Positions 4,976 through 36,191 of a stretch of DNA of 53,405 nt are shown here, in pieces. The position numbers and the translations under genes are program-made. This stretch comes from Terriglobia bacterium (GTDB lineage Bacteria > Acidobacteriota > Terriglobia > Bryobacterales > Bryobacteraceae): contig JAENWC010000028.1 in NCBI GenBank assembly GCA_016650235.1, positions 1-53,405 on the forward strand, given 5' to 3'. Every line of letters begins with the position of its first letter. The first letter of the stretch is position 1. The notes beneath the pieces are model-generated. The model was given only the letters and a program-made list of their open reading frames with translations, had not been told where the DNA came from and did no database searches.

Positions 4976-6593
4976 TCTCAACCACCTCCTTCCTCACTTC
5001 GGGGTCTGGTAGTTTCTGGTTTAGAGTGCCGATGAAGGAGCTCTCCGCCTCAGCCACGGCGCGGAAGGTCCTGTCACCGTGGCCCACGGCCCGAAAGGTG
5101 AGATCCATGGAGCGCTTTGCAGAACGGCGGCACTGACGGATCCACTCAGCCAAAGCCTCGGTCAGTCCAGTGTCGACGTCGATGGAGTCACGGCCGCCCG
5201 CTGCAAGGTCTACGATGAACTTCTGGAACTCGATCTGAATGCCCGCCCAATAGTGCTGAAGACGAAACAGCGAGCAAGCAAGACGCGACACGGCATTCTT
5301 GTCCGAATCCTTCTTCTCCCCGCCCACGCGGTCCTGATGAGTCAGGAGTCGCTCAGCAAGGCGCTTCGTTCCAGATTGAAGGGCCCTTTCACCGTTTTCC
5401 GCCATTTCCAACGCCTTCTTCACCTGCGCGCAAAGTGCAGGCTGCTTCAGAATCGTGAGCGGCAGGGGAAGCGATTCGGCGTGCCAGGAGAGCACCTTCG
5501 CCCTGGACGTGCAGAGCCCGGCAACGTCCAGAGCATACGGATGAGCCTCATCGAGAACTTCGTCGGTAAGATCACCGATCCAGTCCAGGATCGGCGGACG
5601 GACGGATTGATCCTCAAATTTCCCGAAGAGGCTATGGGCGTCGCGCCAGACCGCTCTCTCTTCCCGGAAGCTGAGCGGAATCCAGGGACTCGCGCCCTTC
5701 CGGGCCTTCGGCAAGCGCTGCCACGCCATCATCGAGTCCTTCTCTGGAAGAGCAAAGCTGTTCGAGACCGCCTCACCCTTCATTACTGCTGCGTTGCGCA
5801 CCTCGGGCGCCACGGTATCGCCCTCGGGAAAGAGCAGAATTCGGCGGCTCTGCCAAGTGAGCAGGTCCAACCATCCGCAAGGTATGCGTTCGCGAACCTG
5901 AGCCGATTTAACTCTCTCCCAGGCAGGGATGTCCTGTGCACCGCCGAAGGGAACTTCTTGGGTGGGGTGGTAGCGACGAAGATTCAAGAGCAAGGTCTGG
6001 CGAAGGCTGTCTCCTCGCACCATGCATAGTACGCCCTTAACGGTGGGCGAACCCTCCGTGTGCTTGCTCTTGGCCACGGAGGGATCGGGCGTCGCAGTGC
6101 CGCCAACGGCGTAGGTCTGATGCGCCACCAATTGGAGAGCCGCCTCCAGGGCCGTGATCGCAGAGCAGTCGTCATCGAGCGAGTGATCGAAAAGGGTGGC
6201 GTTGTTCCCGCTGGCGGAGGAATGCACCAACTTGGAGACAGGTCCAGCCAAGCACCGCGGAATCGAGGCATCCTGATAGAAGGGCTGTTCAGCGCCGAAT
6301 AAATCAAACCTGCCCCTCCACTGGTCGAAGTAGCCGTCCAAGGCAGCCATGTCGAAGGACGGAGAGCGCCACAGTATCGCCCAGGCCGCGGCGTTCCGTG
6401 GCCCGTAGACCCGGTGCAGTACTGCCAGCAAGAGGCGCATCACACTGACGCCCACCAGAGGTGACTCGTGCGTGATGTTCAGCAATTCGTGGGCGCGCGC
6501 CAGCGTTTCCCGAAGTGAGAGCGGCACCGCAATCCCCTGTCGAGTGAGACATGGAATCCACGGACGCTCCAGCAAGTTGAACGAATAGCTCAT
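4953..6593 (-). CDS. cas8e: Cascade large subunit Cas8e (Cse1/CasA)
   Basis: A 546-residue large subunit that recognises the PAM and recruits Cas3. The N-terminus FNLLERPWIPCL is the hallmark of Cse1. The length is in the usual 500-560 range, with FDLFGAEQPFYQ and a C-terminal helical bundle as expected. The start overlaps the cas3 stop by 4 nt and the 3' end overlaps cse2 by 23 nt. No frameshifts were seen. Confidence 0.94.
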   Translation of the reverse strand: MSYSFNLLERPWIPCLTRQGIAVPLSLRETLARAHELLNITHESPLVGVSVMRLLLAVLHRVYGPRNAAAWAILWRSPSFDMAALDGYFDQWRGRFDLFGAEQPFYQDASIPRCLAGPVSKLVHSSASGNNATLFDHSLDDDCSAITALEAALQLVAHQTYAVGGTATPDPSVAKSKHTEGSPTVKGVLCMVRGDSLRQTLLLNLRRYHPTQEVPFGGAQDIPAWERVKSAQVRERIPCGWLDLLTWQSRRILLFPEGDTVAPEVRNAAVMKGEAVSNSFALPEKDSMMAWQRLPKARKGASPWIPLSFREERAVWRDAHSLFGKFEDQSVRPPILDWIGDLTDEVLDEAHPYALDVAGLCTSRAKVLSWHAESLPLPLTILKQPALCAQVKKALEMAENGERALQSGTKRLAERLLTHQDRVGGEKKDSDKNAVSRLACSLFRLQHYWAGIQIEFQKFIVDLAAGGRDSIDVDTGLTEALAEWIRQCRRSAKRSMDLTFRAVGHGDRTFRAVAEAESSFIGTLNQKLPDPEVRKEVVENDTAIAG

Positions 6594-9355
6594 GCTCCTG
6601 CCCTTCCAAGAACCCGGAACCCGAGCAGCGGGTCAAGTTCCACGATACACCCGTTCACCTCCGCCCGTGCCGACGAGTCGAAGACAACAGGCTTATGAAA
6701 GCGAAGCATGGCGCTCTTGGCCCAGCCCACCGGCGTTGCCGTCTTCGCCAGCGAGAAAACTAGTCTCTTGTCCGCAACGCTCACTGAGCGAAGCAGCAGT
6801 TCCCTGACGTGCCCGGGAGACGGAGCCGCGCACAGGTCCGTCCGGCGGTGACCTGCAGCATCCAGTGAGGGCCGTGTGGAATCGCCGAACAGGCAAACCA
6901 CCTGGACGCTGGCCTCGGCCAGGCGGGTCACGGCTTGCAATCGCTGATGGACTTCGGGGTTGTCTTCCTCCAGGGGGTTCGCCGTGAACATACTCAGAGC
7001 TACGTCCGCATGGGGTTTTGGCAGGAAACGATTCCTTGCTTCCTGCGCTGCGTTGGCTATGTCCTTGTCCATGGCCGACCTCATGCGCTCCAGAGCTTCC
7101 CGTAGTGCGGCCTCCGTGGAACTTCCGGTACCGCTCCCGTATACTCCCTCGATCAGTTCCTCGACGTCATCGGGCAAGCAGACGGCTTCCTTGCACCTCA
7201 GTGCCATCCAGGTCCTGAGCAGAATGTACGGTTGGTAGACGCTGCTGTTGCGGCGGCCGAAATCGGGGATGCCAGCTGCGGTAAAGCCTGGGTCGATGAT
7301 CCACAAGCACGGAGTTGCCAATCGTTGGGGCCGGGCGTTTCGCTCGTGCCTGTGTAGACGCCCGGATCTTTGAAGGAGGAAGTCGACGGGCGCAAGCTCC
7401 GAGACCATGAGGTCGAAGTCGAGATCGAGGCTCTGTTCTACGACTTGAGTCGCGACGAGGACGGCCTTTCCAGGTCGCGCGCCATTGCCTGGGCCGAAAC
7501 GTTCAAACACCTGCTTTTCGATCCGCTGGCGATCTTCCAGGATGAAACGTGCGTGGAACAACTCCAGTTCCGGCCGGACAGCTTCGGGTTGCTGGTCGAA
7601 GACGCGCCGCAGCTCGCGGTAGGTTTCCTGCGCTTGCGCCACGGTGTTGCAGATGACTGCGGCACAGCCTCCGCCCGAGAGCAAGTCAATAAGGGTTGCC
7701 CCCGATGCGTCCCAGCCCAACCATCGCAATCCCAGGGAACGATGCGACCTCTCTGAAACGGGAAGCGCGAAACTATCCATGGCGCCGCAAGCGCGAATCA
7801 CGCTCACTCTGGGATATCGCTGGTCCTTGATCTCAATCTCAGTCCCAGGCTTTCCAGTTGCCCCTTCGGCCCACGCTTGCAACAGAGCATTTCTCCGGGC
7901 AGTCGGCAGGGTCGCGGATAGGAGCACCACGGAGCACCGTAACGCCCCTAGCCACTCGAGCAGCCGCTCCAGCAGCGTGCTCATATAGGCATCGTAGGCA
8001 TGGACTTCATCGATCACGAGCACCTTACCAGCCAGACCAAAGAGCCGGACGAAGACATGCTTCGTGATGAGGCTTGCCATCAGCGCTTGATCGATTGTGC
8101 CGACTCCGAAGGGCGTCAGAAGTGCGCGCTTCGACTGCACGAACCAGGACGCTGCAAAAACCCTTTCCGTGCCTTCCTCCCCGATGGAGGATAGCTCCAA
8201 AAACTTTTCCAGCAGGTTCAAGAACTCTGGGGACAGATTGGCGTGCCCATGAGCCAGGATGATCGGCACCGCGGCAGTGTTGTGGTAACGCTGGTCCAGG
8301 AACTCACAGACCCGCGTGAAGAGCTGGTTGCTCGTCGCCTGTGTCGGCAGGCCAAAGTAGAAACCGCGCTGACCCGCCGCGGCAGCCAACCTGTCGGCCA
8401 GCAGCAGGGCCGCCTCAGTCTTGCCTTCCCCCATCGGGGCCTCAATCAAGATAGCTGCAGGCTCGCTCAACTCCCCCGCGAGGATCTCGATTCGCGCCTG
8501 GGACTCCCGGGGCTGCTTCCCAGGAAAGAGAAGCTCGAACAGAGAAGCCGACCGAGGCTCCGGTATCCTCCGCCAACCCAGTTCACGCAGCGCCCGCCGG
8601 GCACGCTCGCGTGATTCCTGGAAGTAACCCGTCAGCGAAGGAAGGTTGAACTCGACGCCGAGTTGCGCAGCGCAGCGAAAGTACCGTTGATTGGAAGCGA
8701 TCCAATCGGCAACCGATACAAGACCAGCCGCCGATAGAGCGGGCGCGCAATCCAGGGTTTCCTTCGTCGGGCGAGTCGGCCGAAGGAGATCGATGAGTTG
8801 GTCGAGAATGCCCGCGCGCAGTGTGTTCCATTGCCCGGCACCAAAGGGGTGCTGATCGTCAGTTGTATCTTGAATCTCCTTTCGCGCTGGAAAAACACCG
8901 TGATGGCCGCCGGCGACCGACGCCCATTGACGGGCCAGCTTTGGCGTCATATTGAACTTTGCGGCGAAGGCAGGGCAAAGCAAAGCAGTCCCAAGAAGAC
9001 CGTGCGGCTTGGGCGGGTTCGCCGGAAGGTATTCGCGAGAGAGGATGCCCGCTGCAATCAGCGAAGCCGCCAATGGTTCGCTCTTTCGCTGGAACTCCGG
9101 AGTGCACTTGCCCAGATCGTGAGTGCCGGCGACGAAGGCAAGCCAATCGCGGCAATCGCCGTCAGGCAACTCTGTCGAGTCGGCAAGGAGCTGCCGAAAC
9201 GCCGGGGAGAGGACTTCCATCCACATCTCAGTGGCAACAGCAGCAACGTCGGTGAGATGGAGGAGAAGCGGGTGATAGCACAATGTTGTCGGCGGAGACC
9301 GCTCCAGTGAGGCCTCCGTCTTCGCCCAGATCAGCAGGTTTACACTATCATCCAC
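6590..9355 (-). CDS. cas3: CRISPR-associated helicase/nuclease Cas3, type I-E
   Basis: A 921-residue Cas3 with an N-terminal HD nuclease and a C-terminal SF2 helicase, which degrades DNA recognised by Cascade. HD domain: His33 in LLHLTDV, HD at 79-80 in GTHDLGK, HHG at 151-153 and SVADW near 214-218. Helicase: Walker A APMGEGKT at about 306-313, the DEVH box at 449-452, SATLP at 480-484, and the motif QRSGRLHRH. All expected motifs are present, so the gene appears intact. It starts with GTG at 9355, eleven bases from the remnant of an unrelated helicase gene, so its promoter must lie in that degraded DNA. It is the first gene of the cas operon. Confidence 0.95.
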
Positions 9356-9825: not shown

Positions 9826-10265
9826 CGTAGGCGGGCTGCGATCTTCGTATCTACTTGAGGATTTGACCGAAAGCTCATGATATTACTTTGCAGGGGTGGG
9901 TGCCCAGTCTCAACCCTCCTCAACAAACGCTTCCTGTCAACCGGAGAAACGGGAGAATTGGTAGGCGAAAACGTGGGGTTCAGCCTTAACTCTGGGGTTG
10001 AGCGCGCCACCCCGCAACACCTCGCTTCCAACCGGAGAGAACGCGCGGCGCGCCAGAACGTGCGGAATGTGGCGGATGCGGGCAAAGTCGGCGGCGGGTG
10101 CTGCTGTCAACAAAATAGGCGCTTCGAGTTGGGGTAGAAAAGTAGTGGCTCCCCGGAAACCATGGTTTCCAACACCCTCTCCGCCAGGAAGCGGGTTGGG
10201 CCACGCGAGGCGTGCCATCATATTCTGCCATTTTTCATGCCATAATGGAGCGAGGAGTCGAGCCA
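9826..10265. other. 440-bp non-coding stretch between helicase remnant and mazEF
   Basis: No gene is supported here. Open frames in both directions lack family motifs and ribosome binding sites. Two things stand out. A perfect 16-bp palindrome GGAAACCATGGTTTCC lies at 10155-10170, directly after the sequence GTGGCTCCCCGG at 10145-10156. That string recurs at 11329 and 12256 and resembles a tRNA acceptor end read on the minus strand. The mazE operator candidate is at the right end. Confidence 0.5.
10228..10248 (+). promoter_or_regulatory. Candidate MazE/MazEF operator and -10 region
   Basis: An imperfect 21-bp inverted repeat with arms CCATT (10228-10232) and AATGG (10244-10248) overlaps a possible -10 element CATAAT (10241-10246), about 20 bp before the mazE start. 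MazEF operons are usually repressed by their own products through palindromes at the promoter. No convincing -35 is visible, so this is tentative. Confidence 0.35.
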
Positions 10266-10523
10266 ATGAAGAACTTTCACCTGCCCCTGCCGGAGCAGAC
10301 CTACATCCGTCTTAGGGCGGAGGCCGACCGGACACGGGTCCCCGCCACGACCTTGGCGCGTGAGGCCGTGGATGGGTGGCTGCGGCAACAATCCCGCAAG
10401 GCAAGGCAAGACGCGATCGCCGCCTTCGCTATGGAAATGGCGGGAACACATCTTGATCTCGACACCGATCTGGAATCGGCCGGGATCGAGCATCTGGTGA
10501 AAGGCAGGAAGACAAGCAGATGA
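10266..10523 (+). CDS. MazE-like antitoxin (ribbon-helix-helix type)
   Basis: An 85-residue protein beginning MKNFHLPLPEQTYIRLRAEA, which looks like a short DNA-binding ribbon-helix-helix segment (strand, then helices with TTLAREAVDGWL). It is followed by a toxin-neutralising tail rich in acidic residues (HLDLDTDLESAGIEHLV). ATG 10266 is preferred over the upstream in-frame codon because GAGGAG lies at 10251-10256. The stop overlaps the start of the downstream mazF-like gene by 4 nt, the classic arrangement with the antitoxin first. The pair lies in a zone of mobile-element debris. Confidence 0.8.
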   Translation: MKNFHLPLPEQTYIRLRAEADRTRVPATTLAREAVDGWLRQQSRKARQDAIAAFAMEMAGTHLDLDTDLESAGIEHLVKGRKTSR

Positions 10524-10867
10524 AGCGCGGTGAGGTTTATTGGGCCGACCTTGTCCCGCGGTCAGGATCGGAGCAGACGGGCCGACGTCCCGTGATCCTG
10601 GTGTCTCACGACGGTTTCAACCAAACTCTCGGATGGAGGTCTATCATCGTGGTCCCCATCTCCACCGCCTCATCGAAGGGTAAGCGCGGACCTACGGTTA
10701 TCGAACTCTCGGGCGGGGTTGCCGGTCTACCCAGGACGAGCTTCGCCGTCTGCCATCAAGTGACCACTTTGGATCGGGCCAAGATGACCAAGCGCGCCGG
10801 CACGCTGCCGCCTGAGTCTCTGCGCGAAGTCGAGGAGGGGCTGAAGGCCGCGATGGATCTCGATTGA
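10520..10867 (+). CDS. MazF/PemK-type endoribonuclease toxin
   Basis: A 115-residue MazF/PemK toxin, which cleaves mRNA at short sequences. Family signatures are GEVYWADLVPRSGSEQTGRRPVI in the N-terminal strand region (with the conserved GSEQ..RRPV), VVPISTA, and CHQVTTLDR near the C-terminal third, where the family has the catalytic Thr/Ser. Full length, with no damage seen. Translationally coupled to the antitoxin gene through an ATGA overlap. Confidence 0.9.
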   Translation: MKRGEVYWADLVPRSGSEQTGRRPVILVSHDGFNQTLGWRSIIVVPISTASSKGKRGPTVIELSGGVAGLPRTSFAVCHQVTTLDRAKMTKRAGTLPPESLREVEEGLKAAMDLD

Positions 10868-12290: not shown

Positions 12291-12415
12291 GGAATCCATA
12301 AAAAGTTGGAATATTCTTAAGTCATTGTTAGGGAATGGGTTAGTTGTATTGGATTTGGGTTTGGATTGAGCCGGTGCTCGGGTTTTTGGTTGAGTTGGCT
12401 GGTAGGGTGGGAGAT

Positions 12416-13620
12416 ATGTATCAGGGATTTTTCGGAAAGCATGGGTTGGAGAAGGTCATTGCCCCGGGGAAGGCTCGGGCAGCGGAGGTGTTGGAGAAGG
12501 ATGTAGTTGCGTTTGTGAGGGGGCGGCTGGGGCTGGATCCGGATGAGCAGCAGGAGCGGTTGCTGCGGGAGAGTGGATCGCGGGTGCTGGTGAATTGCGC
12601 GCGGCAGTGGGGGAAGTCGACTGTGACGGCGGCGAAGGTGGTGCATCGGGCATGGACGGAGCGCGGAATCACAGTGATAGTAGTAAGTCCTAGTGGGCGT
12701 CAGAGCGGGGAGTTTATACGGAAGGTGAAGGAGTTTGTGCGGAAACTGGGGGCGGCGCCGAAGGGGGATGGGGATAACCGGTGGTCGGTGGTGCTTGGGA
12801 ATGGGTCGCGCATTGTGGGGCTGCCCAGTGTGGAGGCGACGGTGCGTGGATTTTCGGCGGTGTCGTTCGTGGTGGTGGATGAGGCGGCGCGAGTGCGTGA
12901 GGAGATGTACACGGCGGTGCGTCCGATGCTGGCGGTGGGGGATGGGGATTTGTGGCTGCTATCGACGCCGGCGGGGCAGAGCGGGTATTTTTGGGATGCC
13001 TGGACTTTTGGGGGCGAGGGTTGGACGCGGGTGCAGGTTCGGGCGGATGAGTGCGGGAGGATGTCGCGGGCGTTTTTGGAGGAAGAGCGTGCGGCGATGA
13101 CGGAGAAGAAGTTCGGGCAGGAGTATCTGTGCGAGTTCAATGAAGTGGATGACGGGGTGTTTGATCCGGCGGCGGTGCAGGATATGGTGGATGAGAGTGT
13201 GGAGGAGTTGGCGGCGGATGGGTTTAGGGTGCGGGTATGAGTCGGCCGTGGAGGCTGAGCGGCAGGTGATTTTGGGGCGCAGATGCGCGGGCGGTATGAG
13301 GTGGTGGCGGATGCGACGGGGGGAAGCGGGTTTGCGGAGCGGTGACCGCGGTGGTGATCACCGGCGGGAGTAGCGCGCATATGTCCGACGGGTGCTGGCT
13401 GACGCCGAAGAAGGATCTGATTGGGGAGCTGGCAGTGATGTTGGAGAAGCGCGAGCTGCGTGTGGGCGGTTGGGTTACAGGAGTTGGGCCAACTGAGGCG
13501 CGAGTTATACGGGGCGGGGCGGCCGGGAGCATGATGATCTGGCGATGGCGGTGGCGCTGGCGTGCTGGAGAGCGCGGCGGCGCGGAGTGCGGCCCGCAGG
13601 GGCGGAGTTTGATGTTGGGA
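12416..13620 (+). pseudogene. Phage-type terminase large subunit, frameshifted
   Basis: The first 275 codons (12416-13240) encode a clear terminase large-subunit ATPase: NCARQWGKSTVTAAKVVHRA (adenine/Walker A region), VVSPSGRQSGEF, FVVVDEAARV (Walker B with catalytic Glu), LLSTPAGQSGYFWDAW (coupling motif) and KKFGQEYLCEF. The frame then ends at 13240. Parts of the nuclease half follow in other frames: VVADATGGSGF, TAVVITGGSSAHMSDGCWLTP, PKKDLIGELAVMLEKREL, LQELGQLRREL, then EHDDLAMAVALACWRARR to about 13600. Several indels separate these pieces, so the packaging ATPase is dead. ATG 12416 has a GGTGGGAG site. The G-rich third-codon usage differs from the neighbours and supports foreign origin. 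Confidence 0.85.
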
Positions 13621-19440: not shown

Positions 19441-20970
19441 ATGGCGGCAGTAGTCATGATAGAAAAAGGAGTGAAGCCGGTGCGGCTGGCCGATCTGCTC
19501 CAGGCAGCAGGGGCGCCCATGCTCGTGCCTGCTTCGCTTCTCGAAACCGGTATCTCCGGGCTGGAGTATGATTCGCGCCGTGTCGCCCCCGGCTATCTCT
19601 TCTTCGCCTTTCAGGGGGCGCATGCCGACGGCCGTTGCTTTGCCGGCCAAGCCGAGGCGCAAGGCGCGGTTGCCGTAGTGAGCGAGGAGGAGGCGCCGGC
19701 GGATTTTCGCGGGACTTGGATTCGCGTCGAACACGGCCGGCGCACCCTCGCCTTGATGGCACGCAAACTGTATGCGGACGCCGCCTCCCATGTGATGATC
19801 ACCGGAGCCACAGGGACAAATGGGAAAACGACTGCGTGCACACTGGTGGATCAGTTGCTCAATTCCACCGGGAACATCACCGCGCTGGCCGGCACCATCG
19901 AATACCGTGTGGCCGGCAAAGTCCTTCCCGCTGTGAACACCACTCCGGAATCGGTGGATCTGTACCGGTTGTTCGAGGAGTTGCGGCAGGCTGGCGGCTG
20001 TCACGCCACCATGGAAGTTTCCTCGCATGCGCTGGCGCTGGGACGCGTGCATGGGATGCGGTTCCACACCGCCCTGTTCACCAACCTGACGCGCGATCAT
20101 CTGGATTTTCATCCGGACATGCAAGCCTACTTTGAAGCCAAGTGCGGCTTGTTTGCCGGTCAGGATGCTCCGCCGCCGCGCTTTGCCATACTCAACCGGG
20201 ACGACGAGTGGGCATCGCGAATTCCGTTGGCGGCGGAGACTGAAGTGAGCTGGTATGGAGTGGGCGAAGGGGCGGATCTACGGGCATCCAGCGTGCAGAC
20301 AACTCTGGACGGACTGCGGTTTCGTCTGCACTGGAAAGGGAGTGAATGGCCGGCGTCTTCGCCTCTAGCCGGGCACATGAACGTGTACAACCTGCTGGCC
20401 GCCTTTGGCGTAGGACTTACTTACGGACTGGAGGCGGAAGCGATGATCGACGCAATGTCCCGGATCGGATCGGTCCCCGGGCGTTTTGAGCGTGTCAACC
20501 AGCATCAGCCTTTCCTCGTGGTAGTCGATTACGCGCACACCGACGACGCTTTGCGCAATACGCTCAGAGCCGCCCGTCAACTGGGGGCGGGGCGTGTGCT
20601 GACTGTCTTCGGTTGCGGTGGAGATCGTGACCGCGCCAAGCGCCCTTTGATGGGACAGGCCGCCGGAGAACTCAGCGATTTTGTCGTGGTGACATCCGAC
20701 AATCCGCGCAGCGAAGAACCGCTGGATATTATCAACGACGCCCTGGTAGGGCTGCGGCGCACGGACGTGAATCATTGCGCCGAGCCGGATCGCGCCAAGG
20801 CCATCCGGATCGCGCTGGAGCGCGCCGGCCCCGGCGATGTGGTGCTCATCGCGGGCAAGGGTCATGAGACCTATCAGGTGCTGCGCCAAGGCGTCATTCA
20901 CTTTGACGATCGCGAAGTATCGCGGCAGATCTTAATGGAATTGGGATACGGCAAGGAGTCCGAGCGATGA
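19441..20970 (+). CDS. murE: UDP-MurNAc-tripeptide synthetase MurE, meso-diaminopimelate type
   Basis: A 509-residue Mur ligase adding the third residue to UDP-MurNAc-Ala-Glu in the cytoplasm. ATP-binding GTNGKTT is at 125-131, with EVSSHAL and NLTRDHLDFH following. The C-terminal domain carries DNPRSEEP at about 420, the DNPR motif that marks enzymes using meso-diaminopimelate rather than lysine. ATG 19441 directly follows the ftsI stop; ATG 19456 is an alternative that would lose five residues. The stop overlaps an ATG (20967) of a 61-codon frame with no recognisable family. Confidence 0.93.
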   Translation: MAAVVMIEKGVKPVRLADLLQAAGAPMLVPASLLETGISGLEYDSRRVAPGYLFFAFQGAHADGRCFAGQAEAQGAVAVVSEEEAPADFRGTWIRVEHGRRTLALMARKLYADAASHVMITGATGTNGKTTACTLVDQLLNSTGNITALAGTIEYRVAGKVLPAVNTTPESVDLYRLFEELRQAGGCHATMEVSSHALALGRVHGMRFHTALFTNLTRDHLDFHPDMQAYFEAKCGLFAGQDAPPPRFAILNRDDEWASRIPLAAETEVSWYGVGEGADLRASSVQTTLDGLRFRLHWKGSEWPASSPLAGHMNVYNLLAAFGVGLTYGLEAEAMIDAMSRIGSVPGRFERVNQHQPFLVVVDYAHTDDALRNTLRAARQLGAGRVLTVFGCGGDRDRAKRPLMGQAAGELSDFVVVTSDNPRSEEPLDIINDALVGLRRTDVNHCAEPDRAKAIRIALERAGPGDVVLIAGKGHETYQVLRQGVIHFDDREVSRQILMELGYGKESER

Positions 20971-21214
20971 CGCACCTTCATGCGTCCGCGACGGCTGTGC
21001 CGTTCCAAATCACCTCGGTCGCTGGACCGGGCCTCAACCGGGTCTTACCCGGAGTTGTATTTCCGTGCTCATTGGGAGACGCGGCGGCGGAAGCCGGCAA
21101 GTGGACGCAGACAGGGATAGAATCCCGGCCTCTTCCGCCGCGTACTTTTTGAGTAGTCCGGCCAGCACACGGCAGACCGATCAGCGAAAGGAAGTTTCGA
21201 CGGCATCGCCAACG
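20971..21214. other. Gap where murF normally lies, with two hairpins
   Basis: In most dcw clusters murF sits between murE and mraY. Here there are only 244 bp, with no Mur ligase motif in any frame. A short frame (20967-21152, 61 codons) overlaps the murE stop but resembles nothing I know. Two inverted repeats are visible: CCGGGT-CTT-ACCCGG (about 21037-21051) and a larger one with arms GCGGCGGAAG (starting at about 21082) and CTTCCGCCGC (ending near 21143). They could be attenuator-like structures before mraY or remnants of a deletion. Confidence 0.6.
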
Positions 21215-22348
21215 ATGTTTTACTGGCTCTTATTTGAAAAACTGCACACCAGCTTTGGACCACTGCGCCTGTTCGGTTATGTGACGTTCCGCACCGCGTT
21301 TGCCAGCCTCACCGCGCTGCTGTTGTGCATTGTGCTGGGACCGTGGCTGATCGGCCGCCTGCAGCGGTTTCAGATCCGGCAGTACATCGGCCAGCATGCT
21401 CCCACCTCGCATCAGCGCAAGGCCGGCACGCCCACGATGGGAGGCGTGCTGATCATCATCTCCATTGTTGTGCCTACGCTGCTGTACTCCAATCTGCGCG
21501 TGCCCTACGTTTGGCTCGCGCTGTTCGGCCTCCTCGCCTATGGAGCCATTGGTTTTTGGGACGACTACACCAAGGTGGCCAAGCGCCGCAATCTGGGGCT
21601 CACCGCCATTCAGAAATTCTCGCTCCAGACGCTGGCGGCGCTGGTGATCGGATTCTTTCTTCTGGTGCTGCATGCGCGCGGCCAATACTCGACGGCCATG
21701 AACGTGCCATTCGTGAAGACCTTCAAACCGGACCTCCTCATCGACTCGCTGCTGGGCTCGCCCTACACCTATCCGCTGGCCTTCATATTCTTCTTCGGCT
21801 TTCTGATTCTGGTACTGGCCGGAGCGGCGAACGCGGTCAATCTCACCGATGGCCTGGACGGGTTGGCCATCGGGCTGATGATCATTGCCGCCGGCGCCAT
21901 GACCGTGCTCACCTACATGGGCGGCCATCGTGAATTCGCTACTTACCTCGAGTTGGAGCGCGTGCCGGGCGGCGCCGAACTCACCATTTTCTGCGGCGCC
22001 ATGACCGGCGCATCCATCGGGTTTCTGTGGTGGAACGCGCACCCGGCCGAGATCTTCATGGGCGATGTCGGCTCACTGGCTCTCGGCGGCGGTTTGGGCA
22101 CCATGGCGGTTCTGATCAAGCAGGAGATTCTGCTGCTGTTCATCGGCGGCGTCTATGTGATCGAGCTCTTATCGGTCGTGTTGCAGGTGGCCAGCATGCG
22201 CTTGCGCGGCAAGCGGGTGTTTCTCCGCTCGCCGCTGCATCACCATTTTGAAGAACTGGGGTGGGAGGAGGCCAAGATCATCACGCGGTTTTGGATACTG
22301 GGCCTGGTGATGGCCTTATTCGCCTTGACAACGTTGAAGCTTAGGTAA
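21215..22348 (+). CDS. mraY: Phospho-MurNAc-pentapeptide transferase MraY
   Basis: A 377-residue integral membrane enzyme that links the MurNAc-pentapeptide to undecaprenyl phosphate, forming lipid I. Signatures are HQRKAGTPTMGG, FWDDYTKV, NAVNLTDGLDGLA and the C-terminal RSPLHHHFEELGW, with about ten hydrophobic helices. ATG 21215 (MFYWLLFEKLH) is the standard family start. The frame is open further upstream but lacks family similarity there. GAAAGGAAG lies about 20 bp upstream, farther than usual. Confidence 0.95.
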   Translation: MFYWLLFEKLHTSFGPLRLFGYVTFRTAFASLTALLLCIVLGPWLIGRLQRFQIRQYIGQHAPTSHQRKAGTPTMGGVLIIISIVVPTLLYSNLRVPYVWLALFGLLAYGAIGFWDDYTKVAKRRNLGLTAIQKFSLQTLAALVIGFFLLVLHARGQYSTAMNVPFVKTFKPDLLIDSLLGSPYTYPLAFIFFFGFLILVLAGAANAVNLTDGLDGLAIGLMIIAAGAMTVLTYMGGHREFATYLELERVPGGAELTIFCGAMTGASIGFLWWNAHPAEIFMGDVGSLALGGGLGTMAVLIKQEILLLFIGGVYVIELLSVVLQVASMRLRGKRVFLRSPLHHHFEELGWEEAKIITRFWILGLVMALFALTTLKLR

Positions 22349-25983: not shown

Positions 25984-27363
25984 ATGTTTTTAAAGCCCCA
26001 GCACTTGCATTTCACGGGGATTGGCGGAATCGGAATGAGTGGCATCGCGGAGGTGCTGTTGGACCTTGGTTATACCATCACCGGATCGGATCTGAAGCTT
26101 GGCCCCATCACCGGGCGTTTGACCGGGCTGGGCGCGCGTGTGTTTGAAGGTCATCACGCGCGCCACGTGGCCGGCGCGCGCGCCTTGGTGGTCAGCTCCG
26201 CCGTGAGCCAGGATAATCCGGAACTGGTGGAGGCGCGCCGCCGCCAGATCCCCATCATTCCGCGCGGAGAGCTGCTGGCCGAGCTGATGCGGCTGAAGTT
26301 CGGCATCGCCGTGGCTGGCAGCCACGGCAAAACGACCACCACCTCGATGGTTGCGGCCATCCTGAGCCACGCCGGACTGGACCCGACCGTAGTGGTGGGC
26401 GGCCGGTTGCGGACCGTTGGCGGCAGCAACGCGCGCGTGGGCAAGAGCGAATTCATGGTGGTGGAGTCGGACGAGAGCGACGGATCATTTCTCAGGCTGG
26501 CTCCGATTCTTGCCGTGGTCACCAACATCGATCAGGAGCACCTGGACCACTACGGAAGCTTTGAAAACGTGGTGACCGCGTTCACGGAGTTCGTCAACAA
26601 GGTCCCATTTTACGGCGCGGCCGTATTGTGCATGGACGATGAGAACGTGCAGCGGATTCTACCGCTGGTGCGCCGCCGCAGCCTCACCTACGGGGTAAGC
26701 GCGCAGGCCGGCCTGCGCATCACGGAGGCCACCTATGGGGGCTCGGCCAGCCGTTTCCGGCTTGGCCTGCGAGAACAGGAACTAGGCGAATTCGAGTTGA
26801 ACGTGGCCGGGGCGCACAACGTGTTGAATGCCACCGCGGCCGTGGCCATCGCATTGGAACTGGAAGTTCCGCCGGACCAGATCCGGGAAGGATTGCGGTC
26901 GTATGCAGGCGTGGACCGGCGGATGCAGTGGAAGGGACAGGAGGCCGGGGTCACGGTAATGGACGACTACGGGCACCACCCCACCGAAATACGCGCCACG
27001 CTCGATGCGGCGCGCCTGGGCCGTTATCAGCGGATCCACGTCCTGTTCCAGCCGCACCGTTACTCGCGCACGCAGTTGCTGATGGAGGAGTTCGGGCGCT
27101 CCTTCCACGCGGCTGACAGCGTGTATGTGATGGACATCTATGCCGCCTCGGAAGCACCCATTGAGGGGATCGATGCGCAGGCCCTGGTGCGGAAGATCAG
27201 CGCCTACGGCCATCGATCCGTCCTTTACGTGGGCGGCATGGACCAAGGCATAGAAAAGATTCTACGCGAGGCGCATCGCGGAGACCTGGTTTTGACGCTG
27301 GGGGCAGGCAGCGTCACCCAGGCCGGCGATAAGCTGCTTGCGGCGCTGGCGGGGAGGAGCTAA
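25984..27363 (+). CDS. murC: UDP-MurNAc--L-alanine ligase MurC
   Basis: A 459-residue ligase adding L-Ala to UDP-MurNAc. N-terminal [17 protein letters not shown] is the MurC signature, followed by [13 protein letters not shown] (ATP site), [22 protein letters not shown] and [14 protein letters not shown]. It starts 5 bp after murG, and the ftsQ ATG follows its stop directly. Full length. Confidence 0.96.
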
Positions 27364-28272
27364 ATGGCGAAGAAGCAAACGCAAGCGCCGCGGATTATTT
27401 GGAAACCGTTTGTGCTGCCGGTGTTGGCGGCCACTTTCCTTTGCCTCACCGGCCTGCTGGTGTTTCAGGCGCTGGAACGGTTTTTGATTCACGATGCGCG
27501 TTTCACCATGCGTGCCGGGGATGTGCCTGGGGAGGGCTCTCCGGACCTGGCCATCACTGGCTTGAACCGGACCCCGGCTGCTCAAGTGCGCCGCCTGTTC
27601 CAAAGCGACGAGGGGCGCAGCGTGTACCTGCTGCCTCTTGCACAGCGCCAGGAGAGTCTGCGCCGAGTGCAGTGGATCAAGGATGCCTCGGTGAGGCGGC
27701 AGTGGCCCAACCGGGTGTCGGTGCATGTGAAGGAGCGCAAACCGGAGGCGTTTATACGGCTCACCTCCAAGCGGCAGGCGGCGTCACCCAAGTTCATGTT
27801 GATCGACGGGGATGGGGTGCTGCTTCCGGCTCCCGAGGATAGCGCCGTCATGGAGCTTCCCGCCCTCTCTGGCATCAGCCCCGACCAGAACCAGGAAGAT
27901 CGGGCCAGGCGCGTCCGCCTGATGAAGCATGTGATGCAGGCCATTGGGCGTCACGCCGAGTATGTGTCCGAGTTCAACGTGAGCGATGTGGACAATGTGC
28001 GGCTTATCTATTCGATTGAGGACCGCGCGGTGACGCTGCTGATGGGCAATGAGAATTACGCCGCCCGGCTGCAGCGCTTCCTCACGCATTATCCAGAGAT
28101 CAAGAAACGCGCGCCAACGGCGACGGCCTTCGATCTCCGGATCAAGGATCGTATCACGGCCATTGATGAGGAGCGTCTATCCGCCAAGCCCTCCGCCTCC
28201 GGCGGAGCGGCAGGGGGCCGCTCAGTGGAGAAAACGGTCGAACCGTCCGCTCAGGAGCACCATGCCGGTTAA
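27364..28272 (+). CDS. ftsQ: Cell division protein FtsQ
   Basis: A 302-residue bitopic protein with a basic N-terminus, a transmembrane helix at about 18-38 (VLPVLAATFLCLTGLLVFQAL) and a POTRA domain (residues about 58-130: ITGLNRTPAAQVRRLF, VQWIKDASVRRQWPNRVSV, VHVKERKPEAF), followed by the beta domain. It is part of the FtsQLB complex. The last 30 residues are low-complexity (Ser/Ala/Gly), encoded by DNA with small GC palindromes near 28186-28210. The 3' end overlaps ftsA by 11 bp. Confidence 0.9.
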   Translation: MAKKQTQAPRIIWKPFVLPVLAATFLCLTGLLVFQALERFLIHDARFTMRAGDVPGEGSPDLAITGLNRTPAAQVRRLFQSDEGRSVYLLPLAQRQESLRRVQWIKDASVRRQWPNRVSVHVKERKPEAFIRLTSKRQAASPKFMLIDGDGVLLPAPEDSAVMELPALSGISPDQNQEDRARRVRLMKHVMQAIGRHAEYVSEFNVSDVDNVRLIYSIEDRAVTLLMGNENYAARLQRFLTHYPEIKKRAPTATAFDLRIKDRITAIDEERLSAKPSASGGAAGGRSVEKTVEPSAQEHHAG

Positions 28273-34703: not shown

Positions 34704-36191
34704 ATGAGAATGTCATCCGACAAACGCGCGATCGACAAGATCTATAAGAGAAGGGATCGGTACGAGATCCCGGATTGGCAACGCCAAGCCGTGTGGGGAC
34801 GAGGCCGAAAGCAGGAACTGATTGACTCAATATTGAGAGGCTGGAAGCTACCCAAGTTCTATTTCCTGAAGACCTCCTCAGACGAGGAGCTGTACGAGGT
34901 TGTTGACGGGCAGCAGCGGCTTACGAGCATCTTCGAGTTCTTTGACAATGACTTGCCGTTGTCTGCCGGGTCTGCCGCGGAGTTCGGCGGACGTTCTTAT
35001 AAGGATTTACCTTCAAGGGTATCGGACGCATTTGATGACTATGATATTCAGTTCGACCTACTGGAAGAGGCAGAGGAGGAAGACGTCAAACTCTTTTTCC
35101 AGCGCCTCCAGAATGGCCTTCCTCTTACCAGCAGCGAGAAGCTTAATTCGATTGACAGCAAGCTTCGGGACTTCGTGAAGGAACTAACGAAGCATGATTT
35201 TTTTGCGTCTGTTCCGGTTACTGATAGGAGATACGGCTACTTCGACATCCTCTGTAAAGTTGCCGTCCTCGAAATAGATGGGATTGATGCCGGTCTTCGC
35301 TACGACGAACTGAAGTCCGTACTTGAGTCCAGCAAAAATTTCTCCCCAAAATCAAAGACGGCGATCCGAATCAAAGCGTCGCTGGAGATTCTAGACGGGT
35401 TAACTACTGAGCAGAAAGGCCGATTTCGCAACCGAACGTTTGTCCAATCGGCGCTAACGCTCACCTGCCGACTCGTTGACAGCATAAGAGGCAAACCCCG
35501 TGCGACGGCCAGCCTCGGGTCCTTTTTTCTACAGTTTTTGGAGGAGCTCAACAGACAAATAGAATTGGGTAACCGGGCAACGGACAAGGACTACGTGGAG
35601 TTTCAGCGTACGATTAACGCCAACATAAGAAAAGGGGCACGGATTCGGCAGGTTATTCTAACCCGGAAGCTGTTGTCAGCATTTCCACAGATTGCGGATT
35701 CTCTGGACGCTGTTGCAATCGCTGAAGTGGCTTCGGCCTCCTCCTTGAGATCTCTGGCTGTCACGATCTCGGAAACCGTTGCTTCGCTTAACGCGGAGCA
35801 CGCAGCGAAAAAAGGATCGGACCTTTTTAAGCCAACCAACCGGACGGTTCAGGCGCAACAGAACCTGGGCATCCCTGTAAAGGATTTAGCCGGATATATG
35901 ACGCTAATTGAGAATCTCTACTTCTTGTTTCATGAGGGACCATCCGATAGGCTACAGGGACAGTCTCTGCCTGCGTTCGACGACCTGAACGACCTCCGAA
36001 CTGACCTTCAACATGATTTGGATCACGGGAAGGCAAGCAAGGCGAAGGCGAAACGCAGAAAGGTCGGCGCTGCGTTTCAGAAGTACAGCGGGGTACCGAC
36101 ACCAAATTCGCTCGACCCGGAGAAACTCGTTATCGTACAAGGAAATTTGCTGAGTGCGGTAATCAGTGACCTGAATGCCATTAAGATCTGA
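34704..36191 (+). CDS. DUF262 domain protein (GmrSD/ParB-like nuclease fold), probable defence gene
   Basis: A 495-residue protein. The N-terminal DUF262 domain is clear: RYEIPDWQRQAVWGRGRKQE (about 20-38), LIDSILRGWKLPKFYFL, and the hallmark DGQQRLTSIFEFF at 69-81. The remainder is alpha-helical, with no HNH motif of the DUF1524 type, so it is not a full GmrSD fusion. DUF262 proteins act as nucleotide-dependent nucleases in type IV restriction and related anti-phage systems. A defence role is inferred from family and from the accessory surroundings. ATG 34704 follows GAGGA (34692-34696). Its AT-richer composition than the neighbours suggests recent transfer. No partner gene is adjacent. Confidence 0.8.
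   Translation: MRMSSDKRAIDKIYKRRDRYEIPDWQRQAVWGRGRKQELIDSILRGWKLPKFYFLKTSSDEELYEVVDGQQRLTSIFEFFDNDLPLSAGSAAEFGGRSYKDLPSRVSDAFDDYDIQFDLLEEAEEEDVKLFFQRLQNGLPLTSSEKLNSIDSKLRDFVKELTKHDFFASVPVTDRRYGYFDILCKVAVLEIDGIDAGLRYDELKSVLESSKNFSPKSKTAIRIKASLEILDGLTTEQKGRFRNRTFVQSALTLTCRLVDSIRGKPRATASLGSFFLQFLEELNRQIELGNRATDKDYVEFQRTINANIRKGARIRQVILTRKLLSAFPQIADSLDAVAIAEVASASSLRSLAVTISETVASLNAEHAAKKGSDLFKPTNRTVQAQQNLGIPVKDLAGYMTLIENLYFLFHEGPSDRLQGQSLPAFDDLNDLRTDLQHDLDHGKASKAKAKRRKVGAAFQKYSGVPTPNSLDPEKLVIVQGNLLSAVISDLNAIKI

Follow-up and report, generated by a model that had tools for sequence, protein, structure and literature searches.

To our knowledge, the MurF step is commonly regarded as universal and essential, and the enzyme as a drug target. 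Bifunctional MurF fusions (MurE/MurF and MurF/alanine racemase; NF008896 and NF008897) keep the canonical N domain. MurT, which is soluble and paired with the glutaminase GatD, acts on lipid II (lipid II amidation). In the literature, MurF2 of the teicoplanin cluster is placed with vanHAX homologues (PMC4790382), dcw genes are described in general terms as able to escape or disappear (PMC8871954), and most dcw clusters are reported to carry murE and murF as a tandem pair (PMC11915815); the passages of the last two sources contain nothing on the protein described here. The open-access literature, a scope into which subscription papers mostly do not fall, yielded no paper on such a MurF and none on an mraY leader or relic of this kind.

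At the locus analyzed here, murF was very likely lost, with its job taken by a probably imported cassette of ddl, an alpha/beta hydrolase gene and the gene of a MurF relative (MurF-TM), and with a relic left as a hairpin ahead of mraY. MurF-TM resembles MurF (TIGR01143; E. coli 1GG4, T. maritima 3ZL8) in its ATPase and C-terminal domains, GKT P-loop, DDxYNxNP motif and fold; it is also partnered with a Ddl and, in Poribacteria, has the same gene position. Unlike MurF, it has no UDP-binding N domain and carries approximately 180 largely hydrophobic helical residues instead, it scores below the family cut-off (234.2 vs. 288.6 bits), and in Acidobacteria it has Asn at the position of a Lys. With MurT it shares the Mur core, and the MurT alignment begins near the start of MurT itself (residue 3 of 9sqj at model residue 165); however, the match to MurT was 7.5e-12 vs. 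4.6e-64 to MurF, and the neighbors found were ddl and the hydrolase gene. MurF2 of glycopeptide (van) clusters is comparable in being a second MurF, but it is described as an added, resistance-linked copy, whereas no MurF-like gene other than MurF-TM was found here in addition to the dcw ligases. The bifunctional fusions are likewise a departure from stand-alone murF, whereas the match of MurF-TM to their MurF part starts only at the ATPase domain.

The window is the whole 53,405-nucleotide stretch analyzed and represents the entire contig C28 of a 6.08-Mb genome (562 contigs, 86.4% complete). This genome is denoted G000, other G numbers denote related genomes, and L numbers denote fetched loci. 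The dcw order in the window is presumably mraZ, rsmH, ftsL, ftsI, murE, mraY, murD, ftsW, murG, murC, ftsQ, ftsA and ftsZ (names assigned from the sequences); the identities of murE, mraY and ftsQ were checked by domain search. An open reading frame with the Pfam Mur_ligase M, C and N domains defines murE (19441..20970, plus strand), the final gene 5′ of the gap, and matches to Glycos_transf_4 and MraY_sig1 define mraY (21215..22348, plus strand, start ATG 21215). The sequence-only reading had described the 244 bp in between (20971..21214, plus strand) as free of any Mur ligase motif, and both the coordinates and a TIGR01143 search of the window agreed with it: matches fell inside murE, murD and murC only, with none in the gap. 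The gap sequence is single copy in its own genome, and a mobile element or repeat was rejected on that ground. The 61-codon frame reported over the murE stop does exist (20967..21152, plus strand), but its status as a gene was not upheld, with no Pfam match and a frame that differs from that of the murF relic described below; it was judged to be due to chance. The murC-ftsQ interval (window 25984-28272) has no space for murB or ddl; a ddl is found on contig C287.

Canonical murF was defined as a TIGR01143 score above the curated cut-off of 288.6 bits. It had been argued that murF, missing from the cluster, must sit at another site or have a replacement, and the genome search pointed to replacement: besides the three dcw ligases and a 46-bit match on contig C473, only a MurF-like protein below the cut-off (234 bits) was found, on C287, and this is MurF-TM. 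No MurF above the TIGR01143 cut-off was found in this genome or in eight relatives. In the first search of relatives, 34 of 41 genomes had an over-cut-off murF, and 30 of these 34 loci were fetched. The distance between murE and mraY was 1303-1563 bp in the 29 canonical loci that reach mraY (L033 stops short of it); these loci were picked via their murF match, and they show the usual place of murF, not its frequency. All murF-less junctions read (8/8 and 3/3) were short (2-280 bp), with distances of 244 bp in G000, 204 bp in G001, 179 bp in G010, 280 bp in G085, 200 bp in G070, 11 bp in G066, 2 bp in both G124 and G147, 94 bp in G104, 200 bp in G133 and 112 bp in G024. Across this comparison, which the sequence-only reading had proposed, murF came after murE in 30/30 canonical loci and was absent from 11/11 murF-less junctions.

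In a family sample of 200 genomes, 171 had an over-cut-off murF and nine had MurF-TM at E 1e-60, with no overlap between the two sets. MurF-TM was present in 9/29 genomes without an over-cut-off murF vs. 0/171 genomes with one (Fisher test, P = 8.5e-9, kinship ignored). The best murF E-values of the nine MurF-TM genomes (1.1e-56 to 5.0e-70) were in the same range as that of MurF-TM itself; murF bits were read for six of the nine (228-237), and G066, G070 and G085 were judged from E-values. A further 20 of the 200 genomes lacked both an over-cut-off murF and MurF-TM at 1e-60, and some of these are contig-end cases (e.g., G020).

We considered it highly improbable that a canonical murF exists but was missed through gaps or misassembly in the 562-contig, 86% complete genome. 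The genome is indeed incomplete, and genes may drop out of these assemblies, as G124 and G147 suggest (90-92% complete; no murF, no MurF-TM and no Ddl match above 56 bits in the assembly; dcw loci on C67 of G124 and C93/C21 of G147, L162, L163 and L164, with murE and mraY 2 bp apart). Nevertheless, the murE-mraY junction lies on contiguous sequence and is seen again in other genera, a decayed murF piece is present at it, and G001, G024, G070, G085 and G104, at 96-99% completeness, were also without an over-cut-off murF. The explanation is thereby nearly refuted. A local assembly deletion, the weak point that the sequence-only reading had seen in its own claim, fails in the same way, because the same murF-less junction occurs in separate genomes of several genera. 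As judged from assembled sequence, canonical murF is lost in the window's genome and its close relatives, and the loss would date back to an ancestor shared by a group of Acidobacteria genera.

The MurF-TM protein of C287 is 491 aa long and contains the middle and C-terminal Mur ligase domains (PF08245 and PF02875). Its TIGR01143 match covers model positions 63-403 only, the UDP-MurNAc-binding N domain (model 1 to about 62) being absent from the match, and its N-terminal part is hydrophobic. None of the NCBIfam models scanned takes MurF-TM above its cut-off. The P-loop and the DDxYNxNP motif were kept in 8/8 acidobacterial MurF-TM. At the Mur-ligase Lys position, which we take to be that of the carbamoylated active-site Lys of Mur ligases, Lys was found in 14/14 canonical MurF, in G066 and in 29/31 other MurF-TM, and the same Lys is shared by canonical MurF and the MurE and MurD of the window; Asn was found in 8/8 acidobacterial MurF-TM. 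The Asn might indicate an altered or lost carbamoyl-Lys mechanism, and it is the main biochemical doubt about the function of MurF-TM.

A structure model of the acidobacterial MurF-TM L076 (the G024 homologue; 48-row alignment, pLDDT 90.8) consists of the helical residues followed by the Mur core, with only helices in the place of the N domain. The best PDB matches of the MurF-TM model were MurF structures (Z 41.0 to 3zl8), and the profile match to E. coli MurF runs from E. coli residue 99 onward. The N-terminal domain modeled alone (pLDDT 89.8) matched nothing in the PDB at E 0.001 (best VIA-align Z 4.8); this does not establish a new fold. MurF-TM is probably membrane-bound, with a hydrophobic multi-helix domain that would replace the UDP-binding N domain beneath the ATP-binding and C-terminal ligase domains. 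Three defining features fail (cut-off, N domain and Lys) and MurF-TM is not classed as MurF, yet it most likely works like MurF. It would then most likely act at the membrane, next to MraY, and join the D-Ala-D-Ala of the cassette Ddl to the tripeptide of MurE, making the pentapeptide on a UDP-linked or lipid-linked precursor.

On C287, the gene order is ddl, alpha/beta hydrolase and MurF-TM, with MurF-TM third. The same three-gene cassette is found in G001, G010, G024, G070, G104 and G133. In G066 the hydrolase and MurF-TM genes are adjacent and ddl is divergent, and in G085 MurF-TM lies at the start of contig C105 and the best ddl on contig C80. The usual Ddl scored 340-362 bits in 9/9 canonical relatives tested, whereas the best Ddl of the nine MurF-TM genomes scored 175-272 bits and, G085 excepted, sits in the cassette. 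In G000 the cassette Ddl reaches 259.7 bits against the TIGR01205 cut-off of 245.65 and contains PF01820 and PF07478; the Ddl pieces of G024 and G066 fall below this cut-off. We therefore regard the cassette ddl as a putative D-Ala-D-Ala ligase gene, its specificity being assigned by family match. The hydrolase (e.g., L038 4374-5159), which is beside MurF-TM in 75/80 loci listed, perhaps acts on a precursor or lipid. Gene content and scores indicate that murF and the usual ddl are displaced jointly by the cassette; with the usual ddl displaced too, the whole D-Ala-D-Ala branch would have been swapped as one unit. The takeover probably followed horizontal acquisition of the cassette.

In the dcw tree, which was built from MurE, MraY and MurD segments, G000, G001, G010, G070, G085, G124 and G147 formed one clade (0.976; one inner node only 0.15), and G066 was placed beside the canonical G009, so that two losses of murF are indicated. 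The Mur tree (quick method) had 14 canonical MurF rows and 40 MurF-TM rows, with 31 of the 80 loci used. Canonical MurF and MurF-TM were separate in this tree; the eight acidobacterial MurF-TM clustered together (99), with a Chloroflexi protein next to them (97), and the G066 protein stood apart on a long branch, its placement being unsure. These trees point to two acquisitions of MurF-TM, and horizontal transfer of the cassette is probable. Contamination is an unlikely source of the cassette contig because its GC content is similar to that of the window (0.62 and 0.60, respectively) and because the pairs G000-G001 and G010-G070 are recovered alike by MurF-TM kinship and by the dcw tree.

A scan for contigs with MurF-TM gave at least 80 loci. 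Among those listed, three were acidobacterial, and the remaining ones were from Poribacteria, Scalindua, Chloroflexi, Bacillota, Bacteroidota, Synergistota and unplaced bacteria. A hydrolase gene on the same strand within 2.5 kb of MurF-TM was found in 75/80 listed loci and a ddl in 69/80, contig ends included. Seven Poribacteria loci (L078-L083 and L097) read ftsI, murE, hydrolase, MurF-TM, ddl, an mraY-sized space, murD, ftsW and murG, and the right half of this arrangement is visible in L094; in Poribacteria the cassette stands inside the dcw cluster at the place of murF. The MurF-TM alignment took in 48 of the 80 loci (L074, L075, L093, L095, L102, L120, L121 and L124 were left out of it and of the Mur tree), and the murF search of MurF-TM genomes took in 46 of the 80. 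In a phylum search, 55/396 genomes matched at 1e-50; the match began before model position 100 in four of the 55 (G000, G420, G497 and G529) and at position 132 or later in the other 51, which resemble canonical MurF cores. A second acidobacterial family (f49) has near full-length MurF-TM matches in G420, G497 and G529 (L189-L191).

The possibility that MurF-TM is a side enzyme (e.g., for an altered precursor), while the wall is made of tripeptide precursors or depends on another ligase, was weighed against these data and appears quite unlikely. The absence of the UDP-binding domain and the Asn at the usual Lys would agree with such a role, and an over-cut-off canonical MurF was found beside MurF-TM in 8/46 genomes searched, all of them Bacillota; several others of the 46 had weaker murF matches that reach the N domain (these may include MurE), some in very long, fusion-like frames. 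On the other hand, MurF-TM and murF are strictly exclusive in the family studied here, ddl is replaced jointly, the DDxYNxNP motif is kept, and MurF-TM was the only match at E 1e-40 in 5/5 Poribacteria genomes searched and in the isolates Dethiosulfatibacter aminovorans, Aquibacillus kalidii and Fenollaria massiliensis. Replacement of MurF by MurF-TM is the reading we retain. A relative that carries a hydrophobic helical domain would thus have displaced MurF twice in one bacterial family and seemingly across several phyla, and this raises the testable question of whether the last cytoplasmic precursor step can move to the membrane.

The gap retains sequence that resembles the 3′ part of murF (21065..21160, end approximate, plus strand), in the frame GTG CTC ATT GGG... 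and with the translation VLIGRRGG...AAYFL. A covariance model (R1) built from the relics of G000, G001 and G070 recovered the held-out relics of G024 (1.2e-7), G133 (6.1e-7), G085 (0.0031) and G010 (0.0094); the gap of G104 was not matched in the R1 search. R1 had matches in 98/200 family genomes and matched inside intact murF, at 0.83-0.85 of its length, in 20/20 canonical genomes compared, where the protein reads VLIGIRGAARHLVD...AAYFF and similar. VLxGxxG was read in the murF frame in 7/7 relics with the motif (window, VLIGRRGGGSRQVDADRDRIPASSAAYFL; G070, VLSGNRGAVRHMVDTH; G133, VLLGKRGAS). A few weak R1 matches were on non-murF contigs (G113 C19, G147 C110, G104 C31 and G098 C34). Stops interrupt the relic frame in G001, G085, G070 and G133, and only the G000, G070 and G133 frames are in phase with mraY; given these stops and the varying phase, the relic frame is not a conserved coding frame. 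By homology, the gap is a non-coding relic of the 3′ part of murF, i.e., a deletion scar.

The conserved motifs and the hairpin ahead of mraY could also suggest an independent regulatory RNA family with no link to murF. We consider this a very remote prospect, and as to origin it is refuted, since R1 matches the same place inside intact murF and the relics are read in the murF frame; moreover, the gaps of the window, G085 and G070 gave no Rfam match near any gathering score. A riboswitch before mraY was likewise rejected as the origin, the same motif being found inside intact murF.

Within the relic lies a long GC-rich hairpin (21079..21143, plus strand; arms 21079-21097/21125-21143), detected by inverted-repeat search and fold z. 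Two inverted repeats had been reported in the gap, one with perfect 10-nt arms, and both are there: the 10-nt arms (21084-21093/21132-21141) are enclosed by arms of 19 nt that are 84% complementary. Just 3′ of the hairpin is a run of five T (21146..21150, plus strand), terminator-like or attenuator-like. The window hairpin ranked 2 of 37 among T-run hairpins in the surrounding 18 kb. The ranking was high only in G000, G001, G133 and G024 (G010, 14/27; G070, 16/24; G085, 19/25), and in G104 the gap hairpin was not seen in this test. The fold z of the window relic segment was −2.17, with 8/300 shuffles equally good. All eight relic segments or gaps of at least 90 bp had negative fold z (mean −3.19, range −1.63 to −4.40) vs. 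a mean of −0.77 in the homologous canonical murF segments (n = 29; P = 0.0001; segments 82-110 long, murF segments located by simple pattern, rows related). Counts from terminator and promoter consensus scans were near or modestly above those of shuffles, the loop limit of the scans leaving out the long hairpin.

Whether this hairpin does anything is less certain than its origin, and of the two roles offered for the gap by the sequence-only reading, the scar is borne out by the murF relic and the mraY leader less firmly so. A functionless decaying scar, owing its strength to GC-rich sequence and its conservation to common descent, is a real if somewhat doubtful possibility. The hairpin is missing in the murF-less G124 and G147 (2-bp gap) and G066 (11 bp) and is therefore not essential, strong T-run hairpins occur elsewhere too in these GC-rich loci, and pair counts were weak (no excess covariation on three relics; 26/500 shuffles as high on five). 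Conversely, identity in the relic between G000 and G001 was 65/81, vs. 50/134 at murE fourfold sites and 57/113 at mraY fourfold sites, and relic identity exceeded mraY fourfold identity in 14/15 genome pairs and fell below it in one, the excess often being slight and the gapped alignment flattering the relic. GTGCTC is kept in 7/8 segments and TGG(G)AC..CGC in 8/8, and the relics fold more strongly than the homologous murF segment. We infer that the relic is probably kept as an mraY leader or attenuator: the non-coding 3′ piece of murF at the old site, as a hairpin and T run, would probably act on transcription into mraY. The remains of a dead essential gene may in this way be kept as a regulatory hairpin. 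A changed order of steps, in which MraY takes UDP-MurNAc-tripeptide, a membrane-bound MurF-TM devoid of a UDP-binding domain adds D-Ala-D-Ala to the lipid-linked tripeptide and the murF hairpin is recruited as an mraY leader, seems unlikely.

Other genes of the window were noted in passing. In its left part, Cas3 (best PADLOC match Cas3e) is encoded on the minus strand (6590-9355), followed by a small gene pair (10212-10867), the second of which is a PemK/MazF-like toxin gene, and by a terminase large subunit-like gene (12344-13240; PF03237), possibly a prophage remnant. A possible defense gene (34704-36191) contains the N-terminal domain of the GmrSD restriction endonuclease (PF03235).
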